Part shown: piece by piece, positions 48,859 to 57,365 of the stretch | How the letters are laid out: the number at the start of each line of letters is the position of its first letter | Numbering within the stretch: position 1 is the first letter of the stretch | NCBI GenBank assembly: GCA_949294845.1 | Contig: CASFJH010000079.1 | Span: forward strand, 1-64,000 | Length of the DNA stretch: 64,000 nt | DNA from: an uncultured Bacillota bacterium | GTDB lineage: Bacteria; Bacillota; Clostridia; Christensenellales; Pumilibacteraceae | Direction: 5' to 3' | Made by a program: the position numbers and the translations under genes | The notes under the pieces: generated by a model | Databases searched by the model: none | Seen by the model: the letters and a program-made list of their open reading frames with translations, nothing else | What the model was told of the DNA's origin: nothing

Positions 48859-48935
48859 TGGTCGAGGTAGCGAGATTCGAACTCACGACCTCTGCGTCCC
48901 GAACGCAGCGCTCTACCAAACTGAGCCATACCTCG
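48859..48935 (-). tRNA. tRNA-Pro (anticodon CGG)
   Basis: A 77-nt cloverleaf with encoded CCA. The acceptor stem CGAGGTA / TACCTCG pairs fully, the anticodon loop reads TTCGGGA (anticodon CGG, G37), and the T-loop is TTCGAAT. C1-G72 and A73 fit proline identity. Confidence 0.95.
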
Positions 48936-48955
48936 AATATTTTGACTGAATGTGA

Positions 48956-48980
48956 GCGTCCGCCTTAATAAGGCGGACGC
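48956..48980 (-). other. Hairpin between the two tRNA-Pro genes
   Basis: GCGTCCGCCTT / AAGGCGGACGC, 11 bp with a 3-nt loop. No T-tract follows, so it may be a processing signal rather than a terminator. Confidence 0.6.
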
Positions 48981-48990
48981 ACGCGACCGA

Positions 48991-49067
48991 TGGTCGAGGT
49001 AGCGAGATTTGAACTCACGACCTCTGCGTCCCTAACGCAGCGCTCTACCAAACTGAGCCATACCTCG
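48991..49067 (-). tRNA. tRNA-Pro (anticodon AGG)
   Basis: A 77-nt cloverleaf with encoded CCA, nearly identical to the neighbouring tRNA-Pro. The anticodon loop is TTAGGGA (anticodon AGG), and the T-loop has A instead of G at position 57. A34 would need deamination to inosine. Confidence 0.93.
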
Positions 49068-49126: not shown

Positions 49127-50722
49127 TTACCGTGACGGAAAATTACACATTTCGCCAGAAAATATTTTCCGCACTTTTTCATCGAGATCTTTGTCCGGTT
49201 TGCCGGCGATAACGAGATCGACTTCGGCAGCTATTTCGCGCTGGATTTGTTCATCGGCAAGCGGTATTGGCAACGTCTTGAGATTGCTTTTAAGCACCTT
49301 TTCGGTGCGGAATCTGCTACGGTAAATTTTTTCCGTAACGCTCGAATTGAGCACGGCGAGAACGTATTTTATGTTCATACCGCGCGGCACTAAAAAATTA
49401 GCGTTGTTCAAAGTAAGCCGTCCCTCTCCGTCGTATGCGAACACCGGCCTGTGCGATATGAATTTATATACCAGTTTCTCCTGCCTGAAGCATTTTTCAG
49501 GCACAGACTGCTGAAAGTTTTCTCTGTCGTAGCGGATATAGTAACGCGGTTTTTTTATCACATACCGCTCTATATCCTTGCCCGTAATAACCGGCTCGCC
49601 GCCCTCGAACGGCGCCTCGCGCAGCGTGCCGGCATTGTCTCCGGTAACGATTCCCATGGCAAAATCGGCGTCAAGCAGCACATGGGGCACGCGGTAATAG
49701 CTCTCTATCTCCTCCAGATCCGCCTCGTCGCAGAACGTCCACTCGCTGCCGAAATTGCGACGCGGCAAGAGCCGTTCCTTACCGTCGCTTACCAGACTGA
49801 CGTATTCGCCCGGGGCGTCCGATAAAAATATTCCCATCGCTTTAGACAGCACCTGATCGAACACTCTCCCGAACGTCACTATCTTATACAGCCTGTCCTT
49901 GAGGTAATTCCTCAGTTTAGCGTACCCCACTGCGGATATGAGCGACTCGGGCAGCAGCAGCCTTACTTCCGAAGCCACCGAAAGCGCTTTGACCGCAAAC
50001 AGCGCGTAGCTCTCCGTCGTCCCGGCGATACGGGCAAGCCCGGCGTTTTCCGTCCGGCCGCCCCACGGCGGATTGGTTGCGACAGTGTCCGCGCGATAGG
50101 AGCCTTCGAGAAAATCCTCGCACCTTATATCCGGCTCAAAATCGTAGCCGGCAAACTTCTTGAACATATTCGTCTTGGCTATTCTGACAGCCAGCGGATC
50201 TTTGTCCACCCCTATCAGCCTTTCGGGCGGCAGTCCGCTGCTCAGCAGAAAGCTGCCCGAACCGCACGCCGGATCGAGCAGCACGCCTTTTACGTCTTTG
50301 AGCAGCTCGGCTGCCACGGCTTCGGAAGTGTAATAAGAGCCCAGCTCGGACTTTGCCCCCTCGGCCAGAACCGACTGATAGATCAGTCCGGCGGCGTCGG
50401 ACTCGGCAGGCAAAACGGCGTTACGAAGCTCTTCATCGAAAGCGCTTTCCGCTTCCTCCGTAAGTCTGCGCACTCCGGCAGTCTGCGGCAAGCGGTCGAG
50501 TTCGTTAAGACAGACCGAGTTGACGGCAATCTCGGCGGACAGTCCCTTATCGCGTATATACGCGCATATGCTTTCCGTCTGCGCCAGACTCTCTTTTTTC
50601 AAGAGATTCCTGGGTATAAAAAGCCTGGGCGAACACGACTTGTTTGCCCGCTTGGTAAGTCTCCCGTTCCCGTCCCTTTTCAGCCTTTTCCAGTTGTCCA
50701 GAGTGTTGTTCGATACGCTCAT
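49127..50722 (-). CDS. Orphan N6-adenine DNA methyltransferase (TaqI/Eco57I-like)
   Basis: A 531-residue class I methyltransferase. The N-terminus has a helix-turn-helix-like stretch (LDNWKRLKRDGNGRL). SAM motif I is LDPACGSGSFLL (Asp at about 150) and the catalytic NPPW is at about 217, with GSYYTSEAVA before motif I. The C-terminal 250 residues resemble the target-recognition domain of TaqI-type enzymes (PVITGKDIERYV, then LAVLNSSVTEKIY). No nuclease motif is visible and no restriction gene is next to it. The start is ATG 50722, directly after a -10 box, with no Shine-Dalgarno. It lies between two tRNA loci, a frequent site of acquired genes. Confidence 0.87.
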   Translation of the reverse strand: MSVSNNTLDNWKRLKRDGNGRLTKRANKSCSPRLFIPRNLLKKESLAQTESICAYIRDKGLSAEIAVNSVCLNELDRLPQTAGVRRLTEEAESAFDEELRNAVLPAESDAAGLIYQSVLAEGAKSELGSYYTSEAVAAELLKDVKGVLLDPACGSGSFLLSSGLPPERLIGVDKDPLAVRIAKTNMFKKFAGYDFEPDIRCEDFLEGSYRADTVATNPPWGGRTENAGLARIAGTTESYALFAVKALSVASEVRLLLPESLISAVGYAKLRNYLKDRLYKIVTFGRVFDQVLSKAMGIFLSDAPGEYVSLVSDGKERLLPRRNFGSEWTFCDEADLEEIESYYRVPHVLLDADFAMGIVTGDNAGTLREAPFEGGEPVITGKDIERYVIKKPRYYIRYDRENFQQSVPEKCFRQEKLVYKFISHRPVFAYDGEGRLTLNNANFLVPRGMNIKYVLAVLNSSVTEKIYRSRFRTEKVLKSNLKTLPIPLADEQIQREIAAEVDLVIAGKPDKDLDEKVRKIFSGEMCNFPSR

Positions 50723-50729
50723 AATAAAA

Positions 50730-50761
50730 TTATAGTAGCACAAGTATTCCCAATTGTCAAC
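50730..50761 (-). promoter_or_regulatory. Methyltransferase promoter, leaderless geometry
   Basis: Minus strand TTGACA (50761-50756), then TACTAT at 17 bp (50738-50733) or the overlapping TATAAT at 20 bp (50735-50730). The latter ends 6 nt before ATG 50722; either gives a leader of 0-5 nt. Confidence 0.7.
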
Positions 50762-51209: not shown

Positions 51210-51286
51210 TGGTGTGCCCGGCGGGGGTCGAACCCGCAACCTTCAGCGTCGGAGGCTGATACTCTATCCAATTGCGCTACGGGCAC
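51210..51286 (-). tRNA. tRNA-Arg (anticodon CCG)
   Basis: A 77-nt cloverleaf with encoded CCA. Acceptor GTGCCCG / CGGGCAC, anticodon stem TCAGC / GCTGA, loop CTCCGAC (anticodon CCG), T-arm GCGGG TTCGACC CCCGC. Confidence 0.95.
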
Positions 51287-54439: not shown

Positions 54440-55399
54440 TCAGACCTCGACGTATTCGTAATATACGTTGCCTTCGGCGTCAGTCATGGGGCGCACTCTG
54501 TATTCGCGCCGGCCGTTACCGTCGCCCGTTACAAGTCTGATCGTCTCTCTGCCGTGCTCGGCTTGGCGCTCGAAACCGAATTCGTACTTCTGTCCGTTCC
54601 TGTAGGACGTGAGCTTAAGCTCGGTCTCGTCGCGTTCCTGCTCGTATTTGAATGTACTGCGCTCGCACAGCTTTCCGTTTTCATATATCGAGTAGCTGAA
54701 CTCCCTTTCGGTCTCGTCTCCGTCCTGCTCGCTGCTCTGCTCGACTATCAGGAATCTTCCCTGCCCGAGCGTCACGCGCAATTCGGTCTCGGTCTCGTTT
54801 TCTCTGCCTTCGCTCTCGCTCTGCTTTTCGCCGTGAACGGGATATTCCTCGCCGTCGATTATCATAATTCCGTCAATAACGTATTCTTCCTCCGTCTCGT
54901 CGTCATCGTCGTAGTCATCGTCATAGTCGTCGTCGGGGATGAGCGTCTCGTTGTAATACAGAACATAGCTGAACGTATTGCCCTGCATATCGTCGTATTT
55001 AAAGGACAGCTTATACGCGTAATCTTTCCTGTCCGAAGCCTCCTCGCTCACGCTGAACGCGCCGTCGCTCAACAGACTCTCCACCAAGGTCATGTACTTG
55101 TCAAGTCCTTCGGGTACGCCGCCCTGACCGTTGCCGGCGCCGCCCTGACCGTTACCGGGCGTTACTTCGCCGCTCTCGCCGCCGGGCGTTACTTCGCCGC
55201 TCTCGACGGAAGCGTTCTCGTCGCTCATTGCCGATATGAGCATACCTGCCGAGGCGGCGCTGAAGCCGTAAACCGATTCGGTCGAGGTGAGGGCGTCGAA
55301 CTTGTTGCTCACCTTGCCGGCGAACGAGCCGCAGCCTGTCAGCGCAAGCGCCGCCGCGAGCGCAAAAGCCGGTATCCATAATTTAAAAAGCTTTTTCAT
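54440..55399 (-). CDS. Lipoprotein paralogous to the anti-sigma ectodomain
   Basis: A 319-residue lipoprotein with signal peptide and lipobox LALTGC. After the Cys, NKFDALTSTESVYGFSAASAG and YMTLVESLLSDGAFS match the anti-sigma ectodomain (NKFEAINDAGSFYVYGAASV and YMPLVESLLSEDNFS) encoded divergently, and similarity continues along the acidic C-terminal part (EEEYVIDGIMIIDGEEYPV). It has a Gly-rich repeat linker (GEVTPG twice) and a D/E run. The start is ATG 55399, eight nt after GGAGG. It shares a promoter element with the sigma operon. No known domain is recognised. Confidence 0.85.
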   Translation of the reverse strand: MKKLFKLWIPAFALAAALALTGCGSFAGKVSNKFDALTSTESVYGFSAASAGMLISAMSDENASVESGEVTPGGESGEVTPGNGQGGAGNGQGGVPEGLDKYMTLVESLLSDGAFSVSEEASDRKDYAYKLSFKYDDMQGNTFSYVLYYNETLIPDDDYDDDYDDDDETEEEYVIDGIMIIDGEEYPVHGEKQSESEGRENETETELRVTLGQGRFLIVEQSSEQDGDETEREFSYSIYENGKLCERSTFKYEQERDETELKLTSYRNGQKYEFGFERQAEHGRETIRLVTGDGNGRREYRVRPMTDAEGNVYYEYVEV

Positions 55400-55447
55400 T
55401 GTCGTTTCCTCCGAATTTTTTATCGGACTTTTGCCGTCCGCACTTAT

Positions 55448-55476
55448 ATAACAACGCGCCACGGGCGTTTTGTTGG
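55448..55476 (-). promoter_or_regulatory. Probable ECF-type promoter of the lipoprotein gene
   Basis: Minus strand CCAACAA (55476-55470), 15 bp, TTGTTAT (55454-55448), about 40 nt upstream of the predicted leader and start 55399. The same element with the same spacing precedes the sigma gene. Confidence 0.65.
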
Positions 55477-55533
55477 AAATTTATGAAAAATTTTTTAAGT
55501 TTTTATCCGTTTGCCGCCAAGCTCGTACCTCGC

Positions 55534-55562
55534 TTGACTAAAACCGGATTTTCTGATATTAT
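55534..55562 (+). promoter_or_regulatory. Sigma-A-type promoter of the sigma/anti-sigma operon
   Basis: TTGACT (55534-55539), 17 bp, TATTAT (55557-55562). A second, ECF-like element lies downstream. Confidence 0.6.
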
Positions 55563-55584
55563 TTTTAAAGAAATATTATTTTTA

Positions 55585-55613
55585 CCAACAATCCGACTGT
55601 CGAGGATTGTTAT
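55585..55613 (+). promoter_or_regulatory. Probable ECF-type autoregulatory promoter
   Basis: CCAACAA (55585-55591), 15 bp, TTGTTAT (55607-55613), placing the transcript start near 55620, eleven nt before ATG 55631 with AGGGA in between. The AACAA/TTGTT halves are also inverted, so an operator is the alternative. Confidence 0.65.
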
Positions 55614-55630
55614 TAATACAGGGACATGAA

Positions 55631-56158
55631 ATGAGCAGAGATAAACTGGAGAAAAAAGTCGCCGAGCTTAAAAACGGAGACCGCAGCGCGTTCGACTACG
55701 TCTACGACCACACCCACCGTTCGGTATACTTCGCGGCGCTCTATATTTTAAAGGACAGGATGCACGCCGAAGATATTCTGCAGGAGACTTATATGCGCGC
55801 CATTAATTCTCTCGGCCAGTACGCCGCCGGAACAAATTTCACGGCGTGGCTCGTGAGCATAGGCAGATCTCTCGCTCTTAACCGTCTCAAAAAGTACCGC
55901 AGAGAAGTGACGACCGACTTTCAGGACGACGCTTACAAGTACGGCAGCCGCGAAACCGAAATGCCTTACATATTCGACGTCGCGGCAAAGCTGCTGGCCG
56001 AAGACGAATATCAGATACTGATGCTGTGTCAGGTCGCCGGATACAAGCGGCGGGAAGTGGCCGCCATGCTCGATATGCCCATCGGTACGGTCACATGGAA
56101 AAACAACGAAGCTCTCAAAAAGCTGAAAACTCATCTCGTAAAGGAGGGCGCAGTATGA
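55631..56158 (+). CDS. ECF-family RNA polymerase sigma factor
   Basis: A 175-residue sigma-70 ECF factor. The sigma-2 domain has DRSAFDYVYDHTHRSVYFAA and DRMHAEDILQETYMRAINSL; the sigma-4 helix-turn-helix has YKRREVAAMLDMPIGTVTWK. The start is ATG 55631, seven nt after AGGGA. The stop overlaps the anti-sigma start (ATGA). It would direct polymerase to a small regulon, probably including its own operon and the lipoprotein. Confidence 0.93.
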   Translation: MSRDKLEKKVAELKNGDRSAFDYVYDHTHRSVYFAALYILKDRMHAEDILQETYMRAINSLGQYAAGTNFTAWLVSIGRSLALNRLKKYRREVTTDFQDDAYKYGSRETEMPYIFDVAAKLLAEDEYQILMLCQVAGYKRREVAAMLDMPIGTVTWKNNEALKKLKTHLVKEGAV

Positions 56159-57276
56159 AAAACGTAAAAAAACTGCTGTCGGCGCACTCGCAGGAAATTC
56201 TACCGGACGAGCAGGTCAAAGCGCGCATAAAGAGCGATCTGGGCTTTAACAGACCGACAGTTCCCGCGCGCAGCCGCAGACGCGCCGTTTTCGCCTCCGT
56301 CTGCGCCGTCTGCGCGTGCGCGCTCGCGCTGTGCATAATCCTGCCCGTCGCTTTCATGAAGGGCAAGGCTCCCTCCCTGCCCGGCACGACAGACAACAAA
56401 TTCGAGGCGATAAACGACGCCGGCTCGTTCTATGTCTACGGCGCCGCGTCGGTAGGCACTCTGCTTTCGGCGCAGTCCGCGTCGTCCGGCGTTCTGCTTT
56501 CGGCGCAGTCCGCGTCGGAAATAACGCTAAGCTACGGGATAAAAACGGCTCAGGCGCAAAACGGCGAGCCGCAGCTCGGCTGGGTGCAGAAATATATGCC
56601 CCTTGTAGAGAGCCTGCTGAGCGAGGACAATTTCAGCGGCTCCGCTACCGACGGGTACGGCGAATATCAATTCGGCGTGATAATCGAATGTCCCGATATG
56701 CTGGGCGGAAAGACTTCCTATACGATGTACTATAACAAAACTTTTCTGGAAAGCGAAACGGACGACGACGAAACCGAGGAGACGTACTCTATCGACGGAA
56801 TACTGTGCGTCGGCGGCGCGGAATATCCGGTCGAGGGCAGCTACGAAACCGAAACCTCGTCGGACGAGTCGGAATCCGAGCTGTACTTTAAGGCTTACAC
56901 GGGCGAGGACAGAAGCTCGTTTATCGAAGTGACTCAGGAATTTGAAACCGAATCGGAGGACGGAAAAGACGAAACCGAAAAGGAGTACGTTTACTCCATA
57001 TTCGATAACGGCGAGCTGACAGAAAAGACGGTCGTCGAATACGAAAAGGAAGACGACGAGCTCGAGCTTAAAATGACCGTCGAAAAGAACGGAGCCACGG
57101 ACGAGCTGATTTTCCGCGAAACCGCGGAACAGGGCGAACGCGTCCTCCAGGTCAGCGGAAAGGTTAACGGTCGTGACATGAGGTTCCGCATATACGTCCG
57201 TCAGGGACAGTATCATTATGTGTTCGAGGACGGCTCGTCGTCCGATTACGACCGCCACGAACACGGCAGAAACTGA
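56155..57276 (+). CDS. Anti-sigma factor with large acidic ectodomain
   Basis: A 373-residue single-pass membrane protein, directly coupled to the ECF sigma gene. The N-terminal 40 residues are cytoplasmic, the membrane helix is about 43-65 (after RSRRR), and the rest is extracellular. The ectodomain matches the divergent lipoprotein throughout and has an 11-residue repeat (LLSAQSAS twice) near the membrane. It is rich in Asp, Glu and Thr. GGAGG lies 8 nt before ATG 56155. The role as anti-sigma is inferred from position and topology; no ZAS or RsgI domain was recognised. Confidence 0.8.
   Translation: MKNVKKLLSAHSQEILPDEQVKARIKSDLGFNRPTVPARSRRRAVFASVCAVCACALALCIILPVAFMKGKAPSLPGTTDNKFEAINDAGSFYVYGAASVGTLLSAQSASSGVLLSAQSASEITLSYGIKTAQAQNGEPQLGWVQKYMPLVESLLSEDNFSGSATDGYGEYQFGVIIECPDMLGGKTSYTMYYNKTFLESETDDDETEETYSIDGILCVGGAEYPVEGSYETETSSDESESELYFKAYTGEDRSSFIEVTQEFETESEDGKDETEKEYVYSIFDNGELTEKTVVEYEKEDDELELKMTVEKNGATDELIFRETAEQGERVLQVSGKVNGRDMRFRIYVRQGQYHYVFEDGSSSDYDRHEHGRN
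56461..56517 (+). repeat. 33-bp in-frame repeat in the anti-sigma gene
   Basis: A 24-bp block starting CTGCTTTCGGCGCAGTCCGC is identical at 56461-56484 and 56494-56517, encoding LLSAQSAS twice. Confidence 0.9.
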
Positions 57277-57315
57277 CCGCAGCGAATATTGCAGAAACTG
57301 ACCGCAGCGAATATT
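57266..57315 (+). repeat. Perfect 25-bp tandem duplication across the anti-sigma stop codon
   Basis: 57266-57290 and 57291-57315 are identical (starting GCAGAAACTGACCGCAGCGA). The first copy contains the last codons and TGA stop. Confidence 0.92.
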
Positions 57316-57327
57316 GCAGTTACGGAT

Positions 57328-57365
57328 AAAAAAGGAGACGGATCCGCACGATCCGTCTCCTTTTT
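57328..57365. terminator. Strong bidirectional terminator
   Basis: AAAAAGGAGACGGATC / GATCCGTCTCCTTTTT with a 5-nt loop. It ends the sigma operon and can also stop the leftward alcohol dehydrogenase transcript. Confidence 0.9.

Follow-up and report, generated by a model that had tools for sequence, protein, structure and literature searches.

What most ECF anti-sigma factors sense is unknown, and a locus in which the ectodomain of such a protein recurs as a separate, divergently encoded lipoprotein raises the question of what the free copy does for the circuit. Here the candidate target gene is itself a copy of the sensor and so would name the effector; the ligand of one should therefore give the function of both. 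In this study, we have explored this three-gene system in a stretch of 64,000 nucleotides (hereafter the window) and in related genomes, using sequence and profile comparisons, structure prediction, motif scans and trees. The preliminary description of the window had read an ECF sigma/anti-sigma pair beside a divergent lipoprotein gene, and all three genes were found where it had placed them (Table 1).

Table 1. Features of the sigma operon and the divergent lipoprotein gene, in window positions
Feature	Position	Strand	Details
Lipoprotein gene	54440..55399	-	ATG at 55399; 319 aa
Signal peptide and lipobox of the lipoprotein	Cys23		LTGC
Lipoprotein after the lipobox			Conserved hydrophobic helix (YGFSAASAGMLISAM), then G/E/T/N-rich linker, then acidic beta-rich domain
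Inferred ECF promoter of the lipoprotein gene	55449..55476	-	CCAACAAAACGCCCGTGGCGCGTTGTTA(TA)
Housekeeping (sigma-A) type promoter-like site of the sigma operon	55534..55562	+	TTGACT-N17-TATTAT, extended -10 TG
Inferred autoregulatory ECF promoter of the sigma/anti-sigma operon	55585..55612	+	CCAACAATCCGACTGTCGAGGATTGTTA
ECF sigma gene	55631..56158	+	ATG start; 175 aa; regions 2 and 4
Gene of the membrane protein in anti-sigma position	56155..57276	+	ATG start; 373 aa

Three genes and a shared domain

The sigma factor matches PF04542 (E 6.3e-13) and TIGR02937 (66.9 bits, cut-off 42.9), with the region 4 models scoring just below cut-off; having sigma-70 regions 2 and 4 only and matching the ECF superfamily model, it belongs to the ECF group. 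The start of the following gene overlaps the sigma stop codon (ATGA), an arrangement of translational coupling, and its product consists of a short cytoplasmic part, a single predicted transmembrane stretch and an ectodomain homologous to the lipoprotein. Pfam matched its sequence to no known anti-sigma family, and we read it as a membrane anti-sigma factor from its adjacency to the sigma gene, the coupling, the one hydrophobic stretch and the cytoplasmic N-terminal domain. For the lipoprotein, a GTG further upstream, at 55462, is dispensable as a start, and the ATG is preferred.

The preliminary description had further proposed that the lipoprotein is the ectodomain minus its cytoplasmic and membrane parts, and that the domain itself is not recognised. 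Both points stand: a signal peptide and a lipobox take the place of the missing parts, and the match between the two proteins is real. By tblastn, they share 42% identity over nearly their full length (E 1.9e-45) and are the only copies in the genome, with no third, and a profile-profile comparison aligned 275 columns with a probability of 100% (E 4.4e-56), the hydrophobic helix included. The shared domains are acidic (mean pI 4.2, 22% D+E; pI 4.15 and 22.9% D+E in the acidic domain of the lipoprotein), and with more than 20% D+E on both sides a convergence from acidic low-complexity composition might be suspected, but the local alignment score of 441 lies so far above that of 300 shuffles of equal composition (49 +/- 9, maximum 75) that the common acidity is not the cause of the likeness, and together with the full-length profile match, which takes in the hydrophobic helix, this leaves chance or compositional similarity with a negligible probability.

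The domain belongs to no described family. Pfam gave no family for the lipoprotein or for the protein in anti-sigma position, and across 44 members of the domain it gave scattered weak single matches only, with no consistent family. In NCBIfam, neither protein had a match above cut-off, the sole match of the lipoprotein being its signal peptide, below cut-off. A sequence profile search of the PDB returned nothing usable, the DUF4163 and DUF3298 ectodomain of the RsiV type was matched by Pfam neither in the protein nor in the 44 members, and Rfam matched no RNA element.

For the lipoprotein domain, AlphaFold2 predicts (pLDDT 81, pTM 0.78) a helix formed by the conserved YGFSAASAGMLISAM at residues 18-43, together with about 14 antiparallel strands in succession; the anti-sigma ectodomain is predicted with the same order of elements, a helix and a meander of about 14 strands (pLDDT 74). 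Neither model was matched by Foldseek at E <= 0.001, and the best VIA-align hits (TOC complex, Osh4/ORP8, TamA, porins, OspA) reached a Z of about 8, inside the chance range stated for the tool. Fold searches of both models, with an RseB/LolA-like fold included in the question, gave no significant relative, which does not prove a new fold. It is conceivable, as a speculation, that domains of such acidity receive a cationic ligand.

Putative promoters of the sigma operon and of the lipoprotein gene

A feature missed in the preliminary description lies between the divergent genes, where CCAACAA-N15-TTGTTA occurs on both strands, facing the sigma operon and the lipoprotein gene; the motif common to both putative promoters is CCAACAA-N14/15-TTGTTATA. 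It was first spotted by eye and tested afterwards. The exact motif has a chance expectation of 0 in the window, and its two matches in the 1.69 Mb genome are both at this locus, with 0 for the reversed control. When two mismatches were allowed, further sites appeared in the genome only at the level of the reversed control, and a larger regulon was rejected on the same ground; the best other site (C55:23910), which has one mismatch, lies over the end of a methyltransferase-like frame and makes no obvious promoter. As the scan, made with patterns and not with a weight matrix, covered about 90% of the draft genome and near-consensus sites, it may have overlooked weaker targets.

In 80 related loci, a loose form of the motif gave 134 matches, of which 128 lie upstream of sigma or lipoprotein genes and 6 elsewhere. 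It is present at both genes in 54 of these loci, and in relatives it precedes most sigma starts by about 30-65 bp and lipoprotein starts by about 55-180 bp. The motif also shifts in step at both genes. In one clade whose anti-sigma factors carry an RsgI_M domain instead (L040, L185, L186, L188, L192, L193, L221, L222), the variant TTGGYAAAA-N11-TTGTTNTA is found at the sigma and the lipoprotein gene in all eight loci, with no matches elsewhere in them; L052 has the variant GGAATTT-N-TCGTATATA, and further lineage variants exist.

The fate of the promoter where the genes are separated points the same way. It is kept in three loci in which the lipoprotein gene lies apart from the sigma gene (L060, L080, L089), in genomes that encode the sigma factor and a shared-domain anti-sigma factor elsewhere. 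Family lipoproteins also occur in five loci of genomes in which a search with the window sigma factor detected no orthologue: in four of them (L090, L131, L049, L050) the lipoprotein is without the promoter, and the fifth (L041, genome G026) is an exception, with a promoter-like site present. Taken together, these comparisons speak strongly for the motif as the promoter of the sigma factor and for the lipoprotein as its direct target, the assignment to this particular sigma factor being drawn from the co-variation; a conserved, lineage-specific motif upstream of the sigma operon would also be consistent with autoregulation. The sole detected targets, the operon itself and the lipoprotein, point to a self-contained sense-and-respond loop.

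The sigma operon has a second candidate promoter, of the housekeeping type (Table 1). Of the regions upstream of sigma genes, 49 of 57 have such a site (0.9 in shuffles), against 0 of 64 upstream of lipoprotein genes (0.6 in shuffles). Because it has no housekeeping-like promoter, the lipoprotein looks strictly dependent on the activated sigma factor, and its gene looks like the dedicated inducible output of the latter, presumably absent at rest.

Distribution of the system and exchange of ectodomains

The three-gene set is widespread in one order of Clostridia, and none was seen outside it among the sampled genomes. With a profile of 44 sequences, the domain was detected in 85 of 396 genomes of this order (37 of 142 genera), and in a sample of the phylum the source genome alone matched, with 0 of the 397 others. 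The relatives that carry a name are gut MAGs, among them Candidatus Borkfalkia, Protoclostridium, Scatosoma, Gallimonas, Coproplasma and Ornithoclostridium. Presence is patchy, since the domain is missing from the second genome sampled in the genus of the window. A mobile or phage origin was also considered and rejected, a close search of IMG/VR having given no viral contig with a close relative.

Of the anti-sigma factors at 99 distinct sigma loci, 80 bear the shared domain and 19 are of the RsgI_M type. The neighbourhood is kept in these relatives: the lipoprotein gene adjoins 78 of the 80 shared-domain loci (divergent in 39, downstream in 32, upstream in 6, otherwise in 1), and in the 19 RsgI_M-type loci a family lipoprotein is still found beside the operon or within about 3 kb. 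The RsgI_M domain (PF23750) was confirmed in five anti-sigma factors encoded in the same position (L040, L048, L052-L054; E 1e-14 to 1e-21), and Pfam did not find it in the anti-sigma factor of the window. As the loci were collected through the shared domain itself, RsgI_M systems without a lipoprotein would be missed in these counts. Two tandem copies of the lipoprotein stand beside one RsgI_M-type sigma system in L040 (5597-7803) and in L221 (3711-6160), and the second copy is strongly diverged in L040.

In the trees, the anti-sigma ectodomains do not form one clade (AU test, p 2.1e-5), at least five changes of label are forced by well-supported branches, and a single ancient duplication of the ectodomain across the whole order was rejected by the same test. 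The clade of the window contains an old pair, nine ectodomains and nine lipoproteins in two groups with similar branching; in L043 and L042, the copies within a genome are mutual closest relatives (77% and 50% identical), and these sister pairs therefore argue for repeated capture or gene conversion. In the sigma tree, a quick tree with long branches, RsgI_M and shared-domain types are interleaved, with at least three changes on starred branches. Since the cytoplasmic N-terminal parts of some RsgI_M types of the same order match a profile of those of the shared-domain types (E 1.9e-6 for L040, E 9e-4 for L048), the ectodomain has been exchanged on a related cytoplasmic part. Judged from these comparisons, the lipoprotein appears as the constant part and the anti-sigma ectodomain as the swapped one, a point that the first reading of the window did not contain. 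With its common promoter, its motifs matched by lineage and its swapped ectodomains, where related cytoplasmic parts bear either the shared domain or RsgI_M, the system offers a natural experiment on how sensors are recruited from effectors, in largely uncultured gut Clostridia.

Possible workings of the circuit and its genomic surroundings

With the homology of the two domains, the conserved triple, the common co-varying promoter and the one-sided housekeeping-like promoter in hand, our best explanation, to which we give a probability of slightly under one half (about 0.48), is an ECF sigma circuit closed on itself, with one kind of domain underlying both sensor and effector and with the lipoprotein sequestering the inducer. 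At rest, the housekeeping promoter would keep a little sigma and anti-sigma factor in the cell, and the sigma factor would be held at the membrane by the anti-sigma factor, as the position and coupling of the latter suggest. Once the ectodomain meets a ligand or envelope damage, the anti-sigma factor would presumably be degraded by regulated intramembrane proteolysis, and the freed sigma factor would transcribe its own operon and the lipoprotein gene through the common motif, a step to which the comparative genomics points. The lipoprotein, as a tethered free copy of the sensing domain, may then bind and neutralise, on the surface of the cell, the ligand or envelope component that the sensor detects; the signal would drop and the circuit would reset, having sensed and sequestered. 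In evolution, the lipoprotein domain would have been put on the anti-sigma factor, repeatedly or with gene conversion, letting the cell sense the target of its effector, and the lipoprotein as a constant, ancestral-looking output is a part of this whole explanation, held with the same reserve. In this reading, which we favour, the lipoprotein is an effector made on induction, in the simplest case a sink for the inducer, and the anti-sigma factor senses through a copy of the effector domain that it has captured. On the other side, some lipoproteins have no sigma gene in their vicinity and can therefore act outside such a circuit. Of the three roles offered in the preliminary description (competing for a ligand, capping the sensor, setting the threshold of signalling), competition for the ligand is the most likely.

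Both domains could instead bind the same endogenous envelope component (a lipid, a glycan, a misfolded protein or a cation), the lipoprotein being protective or chaperone-like and the ectodomain reporting the amount left uncovered. The promoter and domain evidence would be the same, and that the lipoprotein persists beside RsgI_M sensors, and also as an orphan, suggests a general task in the envelope. This reading would also draw on a weak structural resemblance to Osh4 and ORP8, which are half-open barrels with hydrophobic tunnels (Z 7.5-7.9, in the chance range), but the fold comparison is not significant, and we hold it to be rather unlikely.

We regard it as improbable that the lipoprotein acts on the receptor itself, pairing sheet to sheet with the anti-sigma ectodomain after activation, shielding it from the first protease and switching the circuit off in the manner of an inducible RseB. 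The two domains are homologous, with many exposed strands in the prediction, and induction of the lipoprotein by the sigma factor itself would give feedback, but the lipoprotein is kept in the 19 loci whose RsgI_M ectodomain offers no such partner, and also in genomes without the sigma factor. A cap acting at rest is unlikely as well, because the lipoprotein is without a housekeeping-like promoter and persists beside unrelated ectodomains, which weakens the earlier idea of a capped sensor.

An extra envelope protein that tunes a membrane anti-sigma factor or sensor, as proposed here, is familiar from RseA/RseB and from CseA-type accessory proteins. RseB, in contrast, does not duplicate the RseA ectodomain, and it is there at rest, when the lipoprotein is probably absent. 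In BlaR1/MecR1, the sensor domain belongs to the same superfamily as the ligand-destroying effector, but these are not sigma/anti-sigma systems, and their effector is an enzyme.

Two further parallels come from sigma systems. The ectodomain of RsiV, the lysozyme receptor of sigma-V, binds its inducer lysozyme and also inhibits it (PMC5014341, PMC4183432), so that sensing and neutralising are united in one domain, there on a membrane anti-sigma factor. There are differences: RsiV has DUF4163/DUF3298, unmatched here, the anti-sigma factor itself is the inhibitor and its regulon modifies the wall, whereas our system has a separate lipoprotein copy and no wall enzyme among its detected targets. 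In sigI/RsgI of Clostridium thermocellum, carbohydrate-binding modules of the anti-sigma factor, which also has an autoproteolytic domain, sense the substrate of the cellulosome that is controlled (PMC10575876). This is again an ectodomain that binds what the target products handle, and some relatives of our system carry RsgI_M, but sigma-I is not an ECF sigma factor with region 4, its targets are enzymes, and the window protein is without RsgI_M.

The principle of a sensor sharing function or domain with its output is therefore already known from RsiV (PMC5014341) and RsgI (PMC10575876), which tempers the earlier statement that no such ECF system has been described. In the open-access papers searched, we found no ECF system with a paralogous lipoprotein, no ECF factor whose sole detectable target is an entire, free copy of its sensor domain, and no RsgI_M swapping. 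We would tentatively suggest a kind of ECF circuit that has not been described before: apart from its own operon, it would put out nothing but a free copy of the sensor domain on the surface, as a sense-and-sequester decoy loop with a new fold and a sensor repeatedly re-made from its effector.

In the surroundings of the locus, a sequence of about 27 bp (AGAAACTGACCGCAGCGAATATTGCAG) stands in tandem duplicate across the anti-sigma stop codon (57270-57325), and a strong hairpin with a T run just after this duplication (about 57330-57365) looks like the operon terminator. An N6 adenine DNA methylase with a TaqI-like specificity domain (49127-50743, minus strand; PF12950, E 3e-24) is flanked by tRNA genes, two for tRNA-Pro at 48859-49067 and one for tRNA-Arg at 51210-51286, and may either stand alone as a type II methylase or belong to a restriction system. 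Near the system, the window also holds an iron-containing alcohol dehydrogenase gene (PF00465; 57493-58827, minus strand). Alcohol dehydrogenases with similar N-termini lie near the system in L034 (8132-9301), L035 (4440-5606) and L039 (11719-12942), and this recurring neighbour is probably a remnant of synteny.
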